Origin: Natrialba sp. SSL1
GTDB taxonomy: Archaea; Halobacteriota; Halobacteria; Halobacteriales; Natrialbaceae
DNA length: 64,000 bases
Direction: 5' to 3'
Assembly: GCF_001861355.1 (NCBI RefSeq)
Contig: NZ_MASN01000035.1
Coordinates: 310,001-374,000 of the forward strand
Shown here: piece by piece, positions 51,791 through 60,792 of the stretch
Numbering within the stretch: position 1 is the first letter of the stretch
How the letters are laid out: the number at the start of each line of letters is the position of its first letter
Made by a program: the position numbers and the translations under genes
The notes under the pieces: generated by a model
The model's database searches: none
Told to the model about the DNA's origin: nothing
What the model saw: the letters and a program-made list of their open reading frames with translations, nothing else

Positions 51791-53341
51791 CTAGAGCGGA
51801 ATGTTGCCGTGTTTCTTGTCCGGGTTCTGTTCGCGCTTGGTTTCGAGCATCTCGAGGTCGGCGATCAGTCGCGGACGGGTTTCGGTTGGGACGATCACGT
51901 CGTCGAGGAAGCCCTTGTCCGTCGCGGTGTAGGGGTTCGCGAACTCCTCGCGGTACTCGTCGATGAGTTCCTCGCGGAGTTCGTCGGGGTTCTCAGCCTC
52001 GGCGAGTTCCTCGCGGTAGAGGATGTTGACTGCACCCTTCGGCCCCATGACGGCGATTTCGGCAGTCGGCCAGGCGTAGTTGACGTCCGCGCCGAGGTTC
52101 TTCGAGGCCATGACACAGTAGGCACCGCCGTATGCCTTCCGAGTGATCACCGTTAGGAGGGGAACGGTGGCTTCCGCGTACGCGTAGAGGAGTTTCGCGC
52201 CGTGGCGGATGATCCCGCGGTGTTCCTGTTCCGTTCCGGGCATGTAGCCGGGCACGTCGACGAAGGTGACGATCGGGATGTTGAACGAATCACAGAAGCG
52301 GACGAACCGCGATCCCTTCATCGAGGCGTCGACGGTGAGCGTGCCGGCGTTAACTCGTGGCTGATTCGCAACGAGGCCGACGGAGCGGCCGTCGAGACGG
52401 CCGAAGCCGACGACGATATTCTGCGCGAAGTTTTCGGCAACTTCGAAGAACGAGCCCTCGTCGACGACCGAGTCGATCACGTTCGTCATGTCGTAGGGCT
52501 TCTGCGGGTTGTCCGGCACGATCGAGGTCAGCGCGTCGTCACGTCGGTCCGGATCGTCCCACGGGTCGACCCGCGGCGGATCCTCGACGTTGTTCTGTGG
52601 GAGGTAGGACAGAAGCCGCTTGATATCGTCCAGTGCCTGTTCTTCCGACTCGCAGGCGAACTGGGCGACGCCGGTCTTGTCGGCGTGGGTCATCGCCCCA
52701 CCGAGCTCCTCGTGGGTGACGTCCTCGCCGGTGACGGTCTTGGTGACCCCGGGTCCGGTGATGTACATATGGCTCGTGTCCTTCACCATGAAGATGAAGT
52801 CCGTAATTGCGGGCGAGTACACTGCACCGCCGGCACACGGCCCCATTGTCGCGGAAACCTGGGGAATGACACCGCTCGCTTCCTGATTCCGGCGGAAGAT
52901 TTCGGTGTAGCCGGCGAGGCTCTTGACACCCTCCTGAATGCGAGCGCCGGCGGAGTCGTTGAGCCCGATGACGGGTGCACCGACCTCCATCGCCATGTCC
53001 ATAACCTTACAGACCTTCTCGGCGAAAACCTCGCCGAGCGAGCCGCCGAAGACGGTGAAGTCGTGTGCGAAGACGAAGACGGTTCGGCCGTTTACCTCGC
53101 CGTAGCCGGTGACGACGCCGTCGCCCCGGATCTTCTTTTCGTCCATGCCGAACTGGCGAGTCTGGTGGGTCCGAAGCTGATCGAATTCGGTGAACGTCCC
53201 CTCGTCGAGGAAGTAGTCGATCCGCTCGCGAGCGGTCATCTTCCCTTTATCGTGTTGCTTCTCGATCCGTGCTTCGCCACCGCCGAGGCGTGCCTCCTCG
53301 CGCAACTCCTCGAGTTCGTCGATCCGCTCGTCCATCGTCAT
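51791..53341 (-). CDS. pccB: Propionyl-CoA carboxylase carboxyltransferase subunit
   Basis: This 516-residue subunit transfers the carboxyl group from biotin to propionyl-CoA, making methylmalonyl-CoA. Both crotonase-like halves are present: GFDD-type start ([34 protein letters not shown]), the oxyanion segment ([17 protein letters not shown]) and a second ([18 protein letters not shown]). The ATG at 53341 (MTMDERIDE) is chosen; a longer frame to 53416 has no family match. First gene of the pcc operon, divergent from the NSS transporter. Confidence 0.95.
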
Positions 53342-53460
53342 GCAGGAAACACCCCGCTCAGATTCATACGCCGTTGTGCGAGGACCAATAGGAAAAGGAT
53401 TCCGTAACTCCATCACGATTAATAGACAATTCAGTGATGAATAAGGACAGCCACGGAAAG

Positions 53461-53492: not shown

Positions 53493-54878
53493 ATGGCACA
53501 ACGTGAGACATGGGCAACGAGAACAGGGTTTATTCTCGCTGCCGTCGGTAGCGCAGTTGGCCTTGGTAACATCTGGCGATTCCCGTTCGTCACAGGCGAA
53601 GGCGGCGGTGCAGCGTTCTTACTGGTGTACCTGCTGTTCGTTGCACTGGTCGGATTCCCCGCAATCCTGGCCGAGTTCGTCGTCGGCCGTCACACTGATC
53701 GGAATCCGGTCGGCGCACTCAGGGCATACGGTGGCGACGCCTGGAAGTACGTCGGTGGCATCTTCATCGCAACCGGTTTCATCATCCTCTCGTACTACAG
53801 CGTCATCGGTGGCTGGTTCATCCGGTACGCAATCGAGGGCCTCCGCGGTGACTACGCCAGCCACATCGCAGCCTACGAGGGCGATCCGGAGATCATGTTC
53901 GGCGCGCTGTCGACCGGACTCGACGCCTTCATCCTGCACACCGTCTTCATGGCGATTACGGTCGGCATCGTCGCCCTCGGTATCCGCCGGGGTATCGAAC
54001 TCGCCGTGAAGGTGATGGTCCCCGCGATCATCCTCCTGCTAGTCGGTCTCGCCATCTGGGCGTTCACCCTCCCCGAAGCAACCGGTGGCTACGAGTACTA
54101 CCTCTCGCCCGACTTCAGCGTCATCGCCGCAAACTGGACCGAACTCCTGCCGGCCGCCGCCGGACAGGCGTTCTTCACACTCTCGCTCGGGATGGGTGTG
54201 ATGATCACCTACGCATCCTACCTGGGCGAGGACCGAAACCTCGCAAAGGACGGCACTGCAATCATTGGCTTCGACACCGGGATCGCGTTCCTCACCGGTC
54301 TCGTCGTCTTCCCCATCATGTGGGCGGGTGACCTGACCGAACCAGGCTCTGGTGGCCCCGGCGAAATCTTCGTCGCGATGACCCAGGCGTTCGCCGATAT
54401 CGATGGCGGCCAGTTCCTCGGCCTCATCTTCTTCGCGACGGTCGCAATCGCAGCCATCTCGAGTGCAATCTCGCTGCTCGAGGTCGTCACCTCCTACGCG
54501 ATTGACGAGATTGGCGTCGATCGGTGGAAGGCAGCAGTCGGAATGGGTGGCCTCATCTACCTCCTTGGTGTGCCGGTCACCTTCGACCTGATCTTCCTCG
54601 ACCTCCTCGACTACTTCGCCGACGCAATCCTGCTCGTCTTCGGCGCGCTCGTGCTGACGATTCTCGTCGGCTGGATCGCCCCGCAGGTTGCGGTCGACGA
54701 ACTCGAGAAGGGGATTGGCGACCTCGGGACGCTCGGAGTCGTCTGGATCTGGGCACTTCGGATCCCGATCGTCATCGTACTGGTCGTCTCGCTGTACCTG
54801 GGTATCGTCGAGTACGTCGACTTCCTCACTGGAATGGAAGAGGGACAGCTCGGTTGGTGGATCGAAGAAAACCTGTAG
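53493..54878 (+). CDS. Sodium-dependent transporter (NSS/SNF family)
   Basis: This 461-residue transporter has about 11 membrane segments. It opens with the family signature TRTGFILAAVGSAVGLGNIWRFPF, which includes the unwound helix-1 region that binds sodium and the substrate. Later helices (for example SVIAANWTELLPAAAGQAFF, GMGVMITYASY) follow the LeuT pattern. It should import an amino acid or similar solute with Na+, which fits a halophile. The substrate is not determinable. Directly followed by a T6 run (54905-54910). Confidence 0.94.
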   Translation: MAQRETWATRTGFILAAVGSAVGLGNIWRFPFVTGEGGGAAFLLVYLLFVALVGFPAILAEFVVGRHTDRNPVGALRAYGGDAWKYVGGIFIATGFIILSYYSVIGGWFIRYAIEGLRGDYASHIAAYEGDPEIMFGALSTGLDAFILHTVFMAITVGIVALGIRRGIELAVKVMVPAIILLLVGLAIWAFTLPEATGGYEYYLSPDFSVIAANWTELLPAAAGQAFFTLSLGMGVMITYASYLGEDRNLAKDGTAIIGFDTGIAFLTGLVVFPIMWAGDLTEPGSGGPGEIFVAMTQAFADIDGGQFLGLIFFATVAIAAISSAISLLEVVTSYAIDEIGVDRWKAAVGMGGLIYLLGVPVTFDLIFLDLLDYFADAILLVFGALVLTILVGWIAPQVAVDELEKGIGDLGTLGVVWIWALRIPIVIVLVVSLYLGIVEYVDFLTGMEEGQLGWWIEENL

Positions 54879-55020: not shown

Positions 55021-55030
55021 CTTTTATATG
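55021..55030 (+). promoter_or_regulatory. TATA-like box of the permuted solute-binding protein
   Basis: CTTTTATATG lies 20-29 bases before the ATG at 55050, with no Shine-Dalgarno site, supporting expression from a leaderless start. Confidence 0.55.
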
Positions 55031-55049: not shown

Positions 55050-56327
55050 ATGGTTCGGGAACTCAACCGAAGACGGGTGCTCAGTGGTATTGGTGCAGCA
55101 GGTATTGCAGGATTTGCCGGCTGTATCGGCGATGAAGAGGAAGTTACAGAGGGCGGGCCGGATGTGCTAAACATCATCGGCTACCCCGAGAGTGGTATTC
55201 AGATCTTCCGTGACTACTACTCGAACTTCGACGATGGGACCGACATTATCGTTCCGGACGGCCTCCAGGACGGCGATTTGCCGGGAGAGGTCGGCAACGA
55301 CATGGACAACGTCCTCGGGACCGCACCGGCGTCGGAGGGGCCGAACGAGGCCGCCTTCGAGGAGATGTACGAGGACGAGTACGACTCCTCACCAGGGGTG
55401 TTCAACTCCCACACGTTCGACGCAGTCGCCGTCTGTATCCTCGCGAACATCGCCGCTGGCGACAACGACGGTGAGGCGATCCGCGACCAGATGCGCCGCG
55501 TCGCAAACCCCGGCGGCGACGAGTACGGACCCGGTGACCTACAGGAAGCCGCCGAGGCCGCTGCCGATGGCGAGGAAATCTCCTATCAGGGTGCCTCGAG
55601 CGGTGTCAACTTCGACGAGGTCGGCGACCCCGCGGACGCAGGGTATGACGTCTGGGAGTTCGAGGACGGCGGCACCGAGACGATCGATACGATTGCCTTC
55701 GAGGGCGACGACCCGGACGGCGAGATGGCAGACGACTCACCAGGTGGGACGGACCGCGAAGTGATGGTCGCGATGTTGCTGCCGGAGACGGGTGACCTCG
55801 GTGAACTCGGCAGTCCGATGATTCAGGCCGGCGAACTCGCAGCCGACCAGTTCGAGGGTACAGGCTTCGAAATCGACCTCGCAATCGAGGACACCGAAAC
55901 CGACGAGGACGCGACGATCTCAAACGGTGGCGCACTCATCGACGCCGGTTACCCGGCCATCATCGGCGCCGCATCGTCCGGGAACTCCGTCCCGCTCGTC
56001 GGCGAAACCAGCAGCGCGAACGTCGTCCAGTGCTCACCCGCGAGTACGGCACTCTCGCTGTCGAACGTCGAAGACGACGGCTACTTCTTCCGGACCGCAC
56101 CGAGTGACCTCCTGCAGGGACAGGTCATGGCCGAAGTGGCCGCCGACCGACTCGATGGCGAAACCGCTGCGACGCTGTACGTCAACAACGACTACGGCCA
56201 GCAGCTCTCGGAACAGTTCATCGACTCGTTCGTCGACGATCAGGGCGGTGAGGAACTCAACACGGTCTCGTTCGAAGCCGAACAGGGATCGTACACCGGC
56301 GAACTCGAGTCCGCGCTCGCCGAGTAG
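55050..56327 (+). CDS. LivK-type solute-binding lipoprotein with circularly permuted halves
   Basis: This 425-residue protein has a Tat-like signal with lipobox (RRRVLSGIGAAGIAGFAGC; Cys25). Residues 35-220 then correspond to the C-terminal half of a branched-chain amino acid-binding protein (PDVLNIIGYPESGIQIFRD ... TFDAVAVCILANIAAG ... IDTIAFEGDD). A short acidic linker (about 221-236) is followed by residues 237-425, which correspond to the N-terminal half (VMVAMLLPETGDLGELGSP ... IIGAASSGNSVPL ... ATLYVNNDYGQQLSEQF ... YTGELESALAE), ending where the C-half would normally begin. Both halves keep family motifs, so the order is the odd feature. Its promoter and signal look functional. It faces the livHMGF operon. 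Confidence 0.82.
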   Translation: MVRELNRRRVLSGIGAAGIAGFAGCIGDEEEVTEGGPDVLNIIGYPESGIQIFRDYYSNFDDGTDIIVPDGLQDGDLPGEVGNDMDNVLGTAPASEGPNEAAFEEMYEDEYDSSPGVFNSHTFDAVAVCILANIAAGDNDGEAIRDQMRRVANPGGDEYGPGDLQEAAEAAADGEEISYQGASSGVNFDEVGDPADAGYDVWEFEDGGTETIDTIAFEGDDPDGEMADDSPGGTDREVMVAMLLPETGDLGELGSPMIQAGELAADQFEGTGFEIDLAIEDTETDEDATISNGGALIDAGYPAIIGAASSGNSVPLVGETSSANVVQCSPASTALSLSNVEDDGYFFRTAPSDLLQGQVMAEVAADRLDGETAATLYVNNDYGQQLSEQFIDSFVDDQGGEELNTVSFEAEQGSYTGELESALAE

Positions 56328-56580: not shown

Positions 56581-57285
56581 TCAGCCACCGAGGAACTGCT
56601 GGCGAACCTCCTCGTCGTGTAACAGTGCATCACCGTCGTCGACGTATCGGTTCTGTCCCTGCACGAGTACGTAGCCCCGATCACAGCGGCGAAGTGCTTC
56701 CTTCGCGTTCTGCTCGACGACGAGCACCGCCGTTCCGGCGTCGTTGATCGCGTCGACGTGATCGAACATCTCGTCAACCAAATCGGGAGCCAACCCGGCA
56801 CTCGGTTCGTCGAGCAATAACAGATCCGGATCGAGCATGAGTGCGCGGCCCATCGCAACCATCTGCTGTTGCCCGCCGCTCATCGACCCCGCCTTCTGGT
56901 CACGGCGCTCGCGCAGAATCGGGAACTGATCGAAGACATCCTGCAGCGCCTCCTCGGGCACCTCATCGAGAATGTACGCCCCCATCTCGAGGTTCTCCTG
57001 TACCGTCAGCGACGGAAAGACGTTCTCCGTCTGGGGCACGTAGCCGATTCCCTTGTGAATGATCTCGTCCGGTGAGCGACCCGTGATGTCCTCGCCGCTG
57101 AACTCGACGGCACCGCCCATGTACGTCGTCAACCCGAAGACCGACTTCATCGCCGTCGACTTGCCGGCCCCGTTCGGGCCGACGATGACGACATACTCGT
57201 CTTGCTCGACTTCGAGATCCACGTCGCTCAGGATCTGCAGATCACCGTATCCCGCGTCAAGTCCATCGACGGAGAGCATCGCCAT
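56581..57285 (-). CDS. livF: Branched-chain amino acid-type ABC transporter ATP-binding protein LivF
   Basis: This 234-residue ATPase has Walker A GPNGAGKSTAMKSV, signature SGGQQQMVAMGRAL, Walker B LLLLDEPSAG and the LivF-type C-terminus. It pairs with LivG to power import through LivH/LivM. The start overlaps the livG stop by one base (TGATG). Last gene of livHMGF. Confidence 0.94.
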   Translation of the reverse strand: MAMLSVDGLDAGYGDLQILSDVDLEVEQDEYVVIVGPNGAGKSTAMKSVFGLTTYMGGAVEFSGEDITGRSPDEIIHKGIGYVPQTENVFPSLTVQENLEMGAYILDEVPEEALQDVFDQFPILRERRDQKAGSMSGGQQQMVAMGRALMLDPDLLLLDEPSAGLAPDLVDEMFDHVDAINDAGTAVLVVEQNAKEALRRCDRGYVLVQGQNRYVDDGDALLHDEEVRQQFLGG

Positions 57286-58178
57286 CAGACCTCACCTCCG
57301 AGGTAGGCCTCGATCACCTGCTCGTTCGACGTCACCTGTCCGGGCACGCCCTCCGCCAGCACCGATCCCTGGTGCATAACGATCACGTGCTCGCAGTGTT
57401 CCATGATCAGATCCATATCGTGTTCGACGATCAAGAACGTGTAGCCGTCCGCTCGCAACTCGTGGATGTGCTCGAGTAGCTTCTGTTCGAGCGTCGGATT
57501 AACCCCCGCAAACGGCTCGTCGAGAAGCAACATCTCCGGTTCGGTCATCAGCGCTCGCGCCAGCTCGAGGAGCTTTCGCTGGCCACCCGAGAGGTTGCCC
57601 GCCTTCTCCTCCGCAATGTGCTCGATCTCGAAGAATTCGAGCGTGTCCCAGACGCGCTCTAGGAGCTCGCGTTCCTGTGCTTCGACCTCGCGTCTGGCGA
57701 GAGGCATGACGGAGCGCCAGAGGGCCTCGCCCTGCTGGTGTTTCGCCGGGAGCATGAGATTCTCGAGGACGGTCATGTTCGCCATCTCGCGAGCGATCTG
57801 GAAGGTACGGACGAGACCGTAGTCGGCGCACTCGTAGGGGGCGATGCCGGTGATATCCTGCCCCTGAAACGCGACGGTGCCTTCGTCCGGCTGGTGGATG
57901 CCGGTGATGCAGTGGAACGTGGTCGACTTGCCGGCGCCGTTGGGGCCGATGAGGCCGGTAATCGAGCCGGATTCGACTTCGAAGGACGCGCCATCGACTG
58001 CGGTAATGCCGCCGAAGCGTTTGACGAGACCGTCGACGGCGAGTTCGATTTCGCCGGTGCGGTCGACTGCGGACGGTGCGACGGCGTCTGCGTCGGTGGG
58101 GGCGTCGGGTGACGTGTCTGCCGTGTCAGTTGCGGTGTCCGTTTCGGTCGACTGGACGTCGGTCGAGCTATCACTCAT
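57285..58178 (-). CDS. livG: Branched-chain amino acid-type ABC transporter ATP-binding protein LivG
   Basis: This 297-residue ATPase carries a Thr/Ser/Asp-rich N-terminal extension (about 45 residues), then Walker A GPNGAGKSTTFHC, signature LSGGQRKLLELARAL, Walker B LLLDEPFAGVNP and the LivG-specific C-terminal LAEGVPGQVTSNEQVIEAYLG. It overlaps livM by four bases (ATGA). Confidence 0.95.
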   Translation of the reverse strand: MSDSSTDVQSTETDTATDTADTSPDAPTDADAVAPSAVDRTGEIELAVDGLVKRFGGITAVDGASFEVESGSITGLIGPNGAGKSTTFHCITGIHQPDEGTVAFQGQDITGIAPYECADYGLVRTFQIAREMANMTVLENLMLPAKHQQGEALWRSVMPLARREVEAQERELLERVWDTLEFFEIEHIAEEKAGNLSGGQRKLLELARALMTEPEMLLLDEPFAGVNPTLEQKLLEHIHELRADGYTFLIVEHDMDLIMEHCEHVIVMHQGSVLAEGVPGQVTSNEQVIEAYLGGEV

Positions 58179-59683
58179 TGTGTCTCACCGTCGGTAGCTG
58201 AGTCATCGGGTTGATCGGTGCTGTCACTGCTAACACGAGAGTCACTATTCTCACTGGTGCCGGCCTGCGTCCCGGTTCCGTCAGCGTCGACACCACCGTC
58301 AGTCTGCTGGTCGGAGCCATCGTGCTGGTCGCGGGGTTGGCTGTGGGCGAATCCGCCACTGGAGCCGCTGCCACCGCTGCCATCGCCACCACTCCCGCCG
58401 CCAGCCGCGCTCGGGCGTGCCCCAAGCGGGATAGCGGCCGCTGTTTCCTCACGATGGCCAAGTAACCCGTCCGGCCGACGTTGCATCAGGAGAATCAACG
58501 CAACCCCCATGATGACGAACTGTAGCGTCAGGAACTCGGCGAAGGTGTACCGGACCAGCGGAACCGGATTCGCAGAGAGTAGCGGGCCGACAGCACCCGC
58601 AAACGTGTTCGGTGCGTCGCCGATTGCCACGAGGTGGTCGATCACTCGGCGGAGGTACTGTGGTCCCTCGAAGAGGACGGCCACGAACAGGCCCGAACCG
58701 AGGATGCTTCCGGTGTTTGATCCGGCACCGCCGATGATCAGCGCAATCCAGATGTAGAAGGTGACGTGCGGGCGGAACGCCTCGGGTGTCACTCCAGTTC
58801 GGCGGAATCGCCAGAGAATGCCGGCAAGTCCCATCAGCGCACAGCCGAGCACGAACACCTTGATTTTGAACATGTTCGTGTCCTTTCCGAGCGACTGGGC
58901 TGCCTCCTCGTCCTCGCGGATCGCTTTCAGCACGCGGCCGAACGGCGACCGGCTCGTCCGCTGGATGAGCCAGTAGATGCCGGCGAGTACGAGCACGAGC
59001 ACGATGGAGTACGCGAGTGCGCGTGCCTGCGTCGGCCCGAAGCCAAACAGGCTGTTCGTCAGGTCGACGAACGAGGAGAAGATCTCCAGTTGGAAGATGA
59101 CGTTCATCGGATCGTCGTAGTTCCGGATGAGTCCGCGTCCGCCACCAGTCCCGAGTTCTGCGCCGAGGATCGTAAACTGCTGGAGCGCGTCTGACGTGAT
59201 TCCCAGACGGACGATCTCCGCGAACGCGATCGTCGTGATTGCGAAGTAGTCAGCGCGCAACCGCAACGCGGGCAGTGCGACGACGAGCCCGGCCAACCCG
59301 GCCGCGACAACGCCGCCGATGATTGCAATCGGCATCGGCAACCCGAGGCCGGCGTACTGGGCTGCTCCGCCCGGATCGGCCGGCTTTGCCAGTATCATGG
59401 TGACGTACAGCCCGATTGCCATGAAGCCGGCAACGCCGATGTTGAACAGGCCGGTGTACCCCCAGTGGAGGTTCAACGCGAGCGTCACCATTCCGTAGAC
59501 CGCGATCAGGTACGTCATCCGCCGAAGTGTGTTGACGATCCCGTCGAGCGAGTAGCCGAGGATCAGTCCAATCAGGGCGTAGACGATGTAGATCGCGCCG
59601 ATGACGGCGATGATCTTGACCGCGTCGTGTTCCCACAGCGATTCCAGTTGCGTGCGTCTCTCTGCGTTTGCTGTCGAACTCAT
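58175..59683 (-). CDS. livM: Branched-chain amino acid-type ABC transporter permease LivM
   Basis: This 502-residue permease has about ten membrane helices and the LivM motif GYTGLFNIGVAGFMAIGLYVTMIL plus the cytoplasmic EAA-like loop SPFGRVLKAIREDEEAAQSLGKDT (key part only). The last 100 residues are a Gly/Ser/Asp/Thr low-complexity tail, unusually long for LivM. Overlaps livH by four bases. Confidence 0.93.
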   Translation of the reverse strand: MSSTANAERRTQLESLWEHDAVKIIAVIGAIYIVYALIGLILGYSLDGIVNTLRRMTYLIAVYGMVTLALNLHWGYTGLFNIGVAGFMAIGLYVTMILAKPADPGGAAQYAGLGLPMPIAIIGGVVAAGLAGLVVALPALRLRADYFAITTIAFAEIVRLGITSDALQQFTILGAELGTGGGRGLIRNYDDPMNVIFQLEIFSSFVDLTNSLFGFGPTQARALAYSIVLVLVLAGIYWLIQRTSRSPFGRVLKAIREDEEAAQSLGKDTNMFKIKVFVLGCALMGLAGILWRFRRTGVTPEAFRPHVTFYIWIALIIGGAGSNTGSILGSGLFVAVLFEGPQYLRRVIDHLVAIGDAPNTFAGAVGPLLSANPVPLVRYTFAEFLTLQFVIMGVALILLMQRRPDGLLGHREETAAAIPLGARPSAAGGGSGGDGSGGSGSSGGFAHSQPRDQHDGSDQQTDGGVDADGTGTQAGTSENSDSRVSSDSTDQPDDSATDGETQ

Positions 59684-60792
59684 GCTGTCGTCTTCCCTCC
59701 AAAGAGCCCGGATGGCCTGATCAGCAGGACCAGGATCATCATCAGGAACGCCGTGATGGTCGTAAAGTCACCGCCGGGGAGCCAGATCATCGACATGTGC
59801 ATGCTGATACCGATGACGAGGCCGCCGACGATCGCACCGTAGATCGAGCCGATCCCGCCGAGGATCACCGCAGCGAAGATCAACAACAGGAGCAGCCAGC
59901 CGAACTGCCAGTCGATCGTCCCCGTCCACAGCACCATCAGATAGCCCGCACTGCCGGCGAGTCCGCCGCCGATCATCCAGGTCCAGCGGATCACGCGCTC
60001 GGTCGGAATCCCCGTCACGAGCGCCAGATCCTTGTTGTCGGACATCGCTCGCATCGCCTTCCCGAGTTTCGTCCGCTGGAGCATCAGGTGCACACCGAGC
60101 ATCAACACCACGGCCGCCGCGATCAGCGTCCCGTCGTGGGCGTCGAGCGACACGTAGCCGTCGACGAGCAACAGGTCAGCCGAGGGCACGCTCGCCGTCG
60201 TCCCGCGGGACTGACTCGAGTAGACGAACGTGATGAGATATCGGAGCGCGAACGCGACACCGATACTGGTGATCAACAGCGGGATGCCGCCGGCCCCGCG
60301 CATCGGCTTGTACGCGAGGCGGTCGATCAACACTGCGAACAGCGCGGTGCCGACCCCGGCGAGCAAGAGCCCGGCGAAGATCGCGACCGGTGTCGAGGTG
60401 ATCGAGATCCCCAGTTGTGGGCCGCCAAGGCCTCGCTGCGGGCCGACAAGCGCCAAGTGACCGAGGCTCGCCGCACCCCAGCCTGCGATGAGGTAGGTAC
60501 CGCCCCAGCCGATGAACGCGCCCGCGGTGATGGTGTCACCGTGGGCGAAGTTCGCGAAGTTGAGGATGCTGTAGGTCATCGAAAGTCCGATACCTGCAAG
60601 CCCCATAATCAGTCCGTAGAGGACTCCTTCCGTCACGTATCTGCCGATGCGTGAGATGCTATACGAGCCGTCAAGGACGCCGAGGATGAGATCTCCCACC
60701 AGGAGTACGACACCGATGCCAACGGCGATCAGCAAAAGCTGCTCCGTTGACAGACTCCTTCCCCGTGTAACGACGTCATCTACAGTCGACAT
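59680..60792 (-). CDS. livH: Branched-chain amino acid-type ABC transporter permease LivH
   Basis: This 370-residue permease has about eight to nine membrane helices and the LivH signature MGLAGIGLSMTYSILNFAN. The minus-strand GGAGGG at 60798-60803 lies five bases before the ATG, one of the few clear Shine-Dalgarno sites in the window, and a TATATATCA element (60831-60839) lies about 40-48 bases upstream. The operon therefore probably has a short leader. First gene of livHMGF. Confidence 0.94.
   Translation of the reverse strand: MSTVDDVVTRGRSLSTEQLLLIAVGIGVVLLVGDLILGVLDGSYSISRIGRYVTEGVLYGLIMGLAGIGLSMTYSILNFANFAHGDTITAGAFIGWGGTYLIAGWGAASLGHLALVGPQRGLGGPQLGISITSTPVAIFAGLLLAGVGTALFAVLIDRLAYKPMRGAGGIPLLITSIGVAFALRYLITFVYSSQSRGTTASVPSADLLLVDGYVSLDAHDGTLIAAAVVLMLGVHLMLQRTKLGKAMRAMSDNKDLALVTGIPTERVIRWTWMIGGGLAGSAGYLMVLWTGTIDWQFGWLLLLLIFAAVILGGIGSIYGAIVGGLVIGISMHMSMIWLPGGDFTTITAFLMMILVLLIRPSGLFGGKTTA

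Follow-up and report, generated by a model that had tools for sequence, protein, structure and literature searches.

The gene at positions 55050 to 56327 (+ strand) of the window, the 64,000-nucleotide stretch of Natrialba sp. SSL1 DNA analyzed here, encodes a circularly permuted LivK-type solute-binding lipoprotein (SBP) of 425 amino acids in which the second half of the family sequence precedes the first, an order referred to below as CP1. The SBP is very probably functional and serves the Liv ABC importer encoded next to it as an amino-acid-binding lipoprotein, with a re-cut chain and a tether that leaves from a different turn.

The open reading frame has exactly these bounds, with 425 codons and no internal stops. 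It starts with a twin-arginine signal (NRRRVLSGIGAAGIAGFAGC) and a lipobox with its Cys at residue 25 (55050 to 55124, +), a signal architecture common to nearly all aligned orthologues and the one expected for export and tethering of LivK/HAAT proteins. Behind the lipidated Cys lies a short acidic tether (55125 to 55154, +), and the AlphaFold pLDDT is <50 over residues 1 to 33. The family second half (residues 36 to 220; 55155 to 55709, +) contains part of the C-lobe and the final N-lobe and C-terminal elements. It is joined by a 16-residue linker rich in acidic residues and Gly (GDDPDGEMADDSPGGT; residues ~221 to 236; 55710 to 55757, +), which lies between the old C-terminus and the old N-terminus, to the family first half (residues 237 to 425; 55758 to 56324, +), which starts at beta1 of the N-lobe and closes with the helix YTGELESALAE of the C-lobe. 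The initial annotation had described Cys25 and the acidic linker and had judged the signal and both halves to look intact, and all of these are present, the linker with an SPGG core that is conserved in the main CP1 group. It had also noted a promoter-like box. A putative TATA-like box of the haloarchaeal type (TTTTATAT; 55022 to 55029, +) is found 21 nt 5′ of the start codon and also upstream of a decayed SBP copy in the Natrialba congener G005, but no sigma-70-type promoter match was found for the window gene. The short spacing between box and start codon suggests a leaderless haloarchaeal transcript.

Profile and structure coordinates establish the order of the halves. Pfam PF13458 matches the SBP in two stretches (85.2 bits; cut-off, 31.7), and its positions 2 to 187 of 343 fall on residues 238 to 423. 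Likewise, residues 16 to 200 of the LivK chain 3td9 align to residues 237 to 422 of the SBP, and chain residues 204 to 328 align to residues 36 to 157. These coordinates are reversed on the window SBP, which means that the halves are swapped, as had been read from the sequence alone and as separate profile alignment of the halves had been proposed to reveal. The syntenic normal-order protein of G024 gives the same picture, with its residues 22 to 225 corresponding to residues 224 to 425 of the SBP (53% identity) and its residues 227 to 408 corresponding to residues 37 to 218 (56%); because it is matched by both window halves, the whole of the G024 protein is covered in swapped order. Each half is matched with an E-value of 1e-50 to 1e-67, which excludes a chance match. 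Thus, by PF13458, PDB, and doubled-query coordinates (see below), the SBP departs from the canonical N-to-C profile order expected of LivK/HAAT SBPs. PF13458 and PF01094 are its only Pfam matches, and NCBIfam scores it at only 33.5 bits, far below the cut-off of 477, which illustrates how linear profile searches under-annotate circularly permuted proteins.

Gene order in relatives was read by searching with the mature window protein written twice, such that the query coordinates show where each chain starts (~386 to 782 or 1 to 400 for CP1, ~195 to 577 for the normal order, and 237 to 628 for a third order, CP2). The doubled query matched 138 of 392 Halobacteriales genomes at an E-value of ≤1e-115. 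Among the matches listed, 30 of these genomes have the normal order, 107 have CP1, and one (G324) has CP2; the CP1 count is a minimum because Halorubrum-type and some other CP1 genes miss this threshold. Of 100 relatives, about 30 have a full-length match in the window order, the least similar at 49% identity. Carriers of CP1 include Natrialba, Natronorubrum, Haloterrigena, Halorussus, Haladaptatus, Halostella, Halorubrum, Haloferax, Halogeometricum, and Haloquadratum. The permutation had been taken for a rare event, but the search in other haloarchaea shows the CP1 order to be old and widespread among them. No full-length permuted copy was found in the PLSDB plasmids.

The CP2 proteins of G048 and G402 come from one genus (g19) in the same family as the window genome, and the gene of G402 lies on a single 5.06-Mb contig. 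Their chain begins with N-lobe beta2, passes through the natural N/C junction (SSYSSVVNEALSGDPDTLVVIGYPEDG) and the C-half, and reaches its last part, N-lobe beta1-alpha1, by way of a CP1-type linker (GEMADEGPGGFDR). The protein of G324, which belongs to a different family, is arranged likewise, and its ends differ slightly. The cut in all three lies in the N-lobe alpha1-beta2 turn, which corresponds to approximately residues 268 to 272 of the window SBP (55851 to 55865, +) and is uncut there, and the genes occupy the same livF-convergent locus as CP1 (L034:919-2235, L139:10190-11503, and L137:9392-10753). Comparison of the two CP2 species gives a dN of 0.055 and a dS of 0.325 (dN/dS, ~0.17); the pair is under purifying selection. 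In the rotated-sequence tree, CP2 is nested in the main CP1 group, and it keeps the linker of that group.

AlphaFold predicts that both permutants adopt a complete bilobed alpha/beta fold. The model of the window SBP is of moderate confidence (pLDDT, 79; pTM, 0.81), and that of CP2 (pLDDT, 86.6; pTM, 0.84) has its relocated beta1-alpha1 (residues 402 to 434) in blocks averaging ~90 to 98. In both models, the first folded element is a strand and the last a helix, which places each cut in a helix-to-strand turn. For CP1, model, profile, and alignment all support the initial placement of the cut in the C-lobe, with the old termini joined through the linker. Against LivK chains (Foldseek and VIA-align), the CP1 model matches only over residues 236 to 425 (Z, 11.6 to 11.8; LivK residues 1 to ~207), the swapped half being out of reach of aligners that proceed along the chain, whereas the CP2 model matches 3td9 sequentially over residues 44 to 384 (Z, 27.5). 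With such aligners, these two extents of match are as expected from the gene orders. The top structural match of CP1, 5er3 (Z, 13.1), was not taken as a sign of kinship, as a half-shifted two-lobed fold may align with its lobes exchanged.

For the history of the locus, trees were built after rotation of all proteins back to the normal order (125 rows in the SBP tree). The three orders require six changes on the SBP tree, and CP1 falls into four groups: main; b (f4; L032, L187, and L188); c (g87; L180 and L181); and d (Halorubrum type; L033 and L189 to L193). A single clade of CP1 plus CP2 received AU P values of 0.046 and 0.031 with the SBP, 1e-6 with LivFGMH, and 6e-5 with the combined data; for CP2 as a single clade, the values were 0.023 or 0.072 with the SBP, depending on the model, and 1.8e-52 with the combined data. 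Since the tested clades were chosen after the trees had been seen and the liv genes carry most of the weight in the combined test, it is likely that CP2 arose twice and possible that CP1 arose more than once, both receiving weak support from the SBP sequences alone. The locus may, at somewhat less than even odds, be a natural circular-permutation hotspot, in which the normal order would have given rise to CP1 two to four times and CP1 to CP2 twice, each time independently and always at one of two helix-to-strand turns.

A single origin of CP1 early in the haloarchaea is a serious contender, if somewhat short of probable, with the scattering of its groups being due to tree error, horizontal transfer, or piecewise recombination. 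With the SBP alone, clades of main plus b, main plus c, and main plus d are not rejected (P = 0.49, 0.39, and 0.10, respectively), one cut is common to all CP1 groups (helix end SSYTSxxxxALxx and strand start PDVLxxxGYPxSG), and the CP1-c linker (SDSIPGSDSDRTVKVG) resembles those of the main group. However, the AU values for a joint CP1 and CP2 clade speak against it, the b and d linkers are unlike those of the main group, and the SBP tree and the LivFGMH tree alike pair the Halorubrum CP1 gene with a normal-order sister.

Downstream of the SBP gene and convergent with it lie, all on the − strand, genes for the ATP-binding proteins LivF (56581 to 57285; Pfam ABC_tran, with support from synteny) and LivG (57285 to 58178; ABC_tran and BCA_ABC_TP_C) and for the permeases LivM (58175 to 59683) and LivH (59680 to 60792), both with BPD_transp_2. 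The SBP gene adjoins livF tail to tail and is not itself part of the liv operon. In a survey of 13 to 20 kb of sequence surrounding each SBP gene, the SBP gene was convergent with a complete livFGMH at 124 loci (95 CP1, 26 normal, and 3 CP2), often with a PccB-like carboxyltransferase gene on the opposite flank. Across 17 CP1 proteins, residues D70-G71 in one half and S309-S310, S329-P330, S332-T333, and Y382-G383 in the other do not vary, and these residues presumably lie at the LivJ/LivK-type ligand motifs. Together with the adjoining Liv ATPases and permeases, these residues lead us to infer a functional alpha-amino-acid-binding lipoprotein that partners with the convergent LivHMGF importer, and the ligand is most likely a branched-chain amino acid. 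Altered ligand specificity had been raised as a consequence of the permutation, but the invariance of the residues equivalent to the binding motifs in both halves gives no indication of such a change. All three orders occur beside the same kind of permease, which suggests that docking tolerates the re-cut.

It is improbable that the SBP acts instead as a ligand sensor or scavenger that the neighboring LivHMGF does not use. Its gene is on the strand opposite to the operon, and a small number of CP1 genes are located apart from a complete operon; for those of G276, the second copy of G098, and Haloquadratum, a complete adjoining liv operon was not found. However, the convergent synteny holds across many families for all three orders, the SBP and LivFGMH trees have similar patterns, and SBP and importer were lost jointly in G005, where a single deletion removed the 3′ part of the SBP gene and the whole livHMGF operon. 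What is left of this CP1 gene (L151:9144-9824; L035:1200-2000) shows ATA where the start codon should be and is frameshifted, making the locus a natural double loss with liv. The CP1 genes of G276 (L149:8602-11316) and G098 (L185) are perhaps those of orphan binding proteins.

Further genes flank the SBP gene in the window, one for a member of the sodium:neurotransmitter-symporter family (53493 to 54878) and one for the PccB-like carboxyltransferase (51791 to 53416). The latter recurs as a neighbor of the SBP gene in several families, which points tentatively to a connection with branched-chain or propionyl-CoA metabolism. The corresponding PccB-SBP-liv slot of genus g19 is occupied by the normal form in G024 (L140) and by CP2 in G048 and G402 (L138/L139). 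The liv operons of G024 and of G048/G402 fall in different clades, so this difference in order looks like whole-operon replacement rather than re-cutting in place.

It is very unlikely that the swapped order came first, as the native form of a separate family, and that the normal order derives from it. CP1 is more common than the normal order in the sampled haloarchaeal liv loci, and a midpoint-rooted combined tree parts the main CP1 group from the rest. However, normal-order lineages are basal in a tree rooted with paralogues, and the window genome's own more distant paralogues have the normal order. Beyond the Halobacteriales, no permuted form was found among the phylum relatives of the window SBP; all matches there are in the normal order, which is therefore taken as ancestral. 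An assembly artefact or a decaying gene can be dismissed, for although the window genome is fragmented (61 contigs) and the copy in the congener G005 has decayed, CP1 orthologues occur in many independent assemblies, some of them single-contig chromosomes, which excludes misassembly, and the window and N. asiatica SBPs differ by a dN of 0.078 and a dS of 0.729, the low dN/dS (~0.11) ruling out pseudogene status and showing the CP1 gene to be under purifying selection.

We propose that the Tat-exported, lipid-modified, and membrane-tethered SBP captures an alpha-amino acid for delivery to LivHMGF, the importer encoded convergently with it. Early in the haloarchaea, the normal order would have given rise to CP1, probably through a tandem duplication that was fused in frame and then lost its outer parts, such that the 16-residue linker came to join the old C-terminus to the old N-terminus while new ends opened in the C-lobe helix-to-strand turn. 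CP2 would then have formed, in at least one lineage, through a new cut of CP1 at the alpha1-beta2 turn. The exit of the tether would thereby move from the start of the N-lobe in the normal form to the C-lobe turn in CP1 or to the alpha1-beta2 turn in CP2, a move that may have been of some benefit, while the two-lobed clam-shell fold and its ligand cleft would be retained. Duplication followed by loss of the outer halves was also the origin first suggested; it is plausible and fits the anatomy of the protein, but a fused N-C-N-C intermediate was not found among unusually long frames. The candidate from Haladaptatus G143 consists of two separate open reading frames with stops between them, and those from G032, G044, G065, G092, G174, G363, and G391 are long low-complexity tethers or noncoding frame extensions before a normal-order protein. 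Haladaptatus also has two diverged tandem CP1 copies beside livHMGF (L134:6849-9632, L135:7301-10108, and L136:7376-10164), which show only that tandem duplication occurs at the SBP locus.

Compared with LivJ/LivK-type proteins (HAAT, type I/cluster B, PF13458; Thermotoga TM1135 [3td9] and E. coli LivJ/LivK), the window SBP has both halves, the predicted bilobed fold, the binding motifs, and the partnership with LivHMGF in common, but its halves are rotated, its old termini are fused by the linker, and new termini lie in the C-lobe helix-to-strand turn or, in CP2, in the N-lobe alpha1-beta2 turn. The normal-order haloarchaeal SBPs of the same locus (G024, G366, G321, and others), also convergent beside livF, have ~48 to 58% identity to the window SBP in each half but, unlike it, have the canonical N-to-C order and no linker. 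In several genera (L295 to L300, L102, and L176), the N-lobe of normal-order SBPs is separated from the lipobox Cys by very long Gly/Asp/Glu/Thr-rich tethers of up to ~100 amino acids.

In the literature searched, a single natural permutation of an ABC binding protein came to light, that of the Treponema pallidum glucose-binding lipoprotein Tp0684 (TpMglB-2), which its authors termed "Type Ic/cluster Bc" and in which the first three N-lobe strands are relocated to the C-terminus and there is a fourth hinge crossing; tethering was raised as a reason for the permutation (PMC4990184). Like Tp0684, the window SBP is a permuted type I ABC binding lipoprotein in which the permutation alters the part nearest the tether. 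However, it belongs to the LivK family, with strong sequence homology in both parts, and not to the MglB sugar family, and it does not show the three-strand N-lobe transfer with a fourth hinge crossing, the cuts being in the C-lobe in CP1 and after beta1-alpha1 in CP2. Furthermore, normal, CP1, and CP2 forms all occur at one locus in haloarchaea. No permuted LivK or permuted haloarchaeal binding protein was described in the literature searched, outside of which lay most subscription journals. Thus, permutation in the LivK family, the second rotation, and the presence of three orders at one locus appear to be new, while permutation of an ABC binding protein as such is known.

Of a natural circular permutation, usually just two distant endpoints are seen. 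In the present family, homologues that are normal, once permuted, and twice permuted share a syntenic locus in culturable organisms, including Haloferax, a genus with genetic tools, which makes it possible to test the route of permutation, the turns that tolerate new ends, and the importance of the position of the lipid tether for ABC import. If the locus is indeed a hotspot, it would provide a series for deriving rules on where cuts are permitted and for learning what the position of the tether does. In this one gene family, the cutting and rejoining of proteins in evolution are on display, with function apparently kept.
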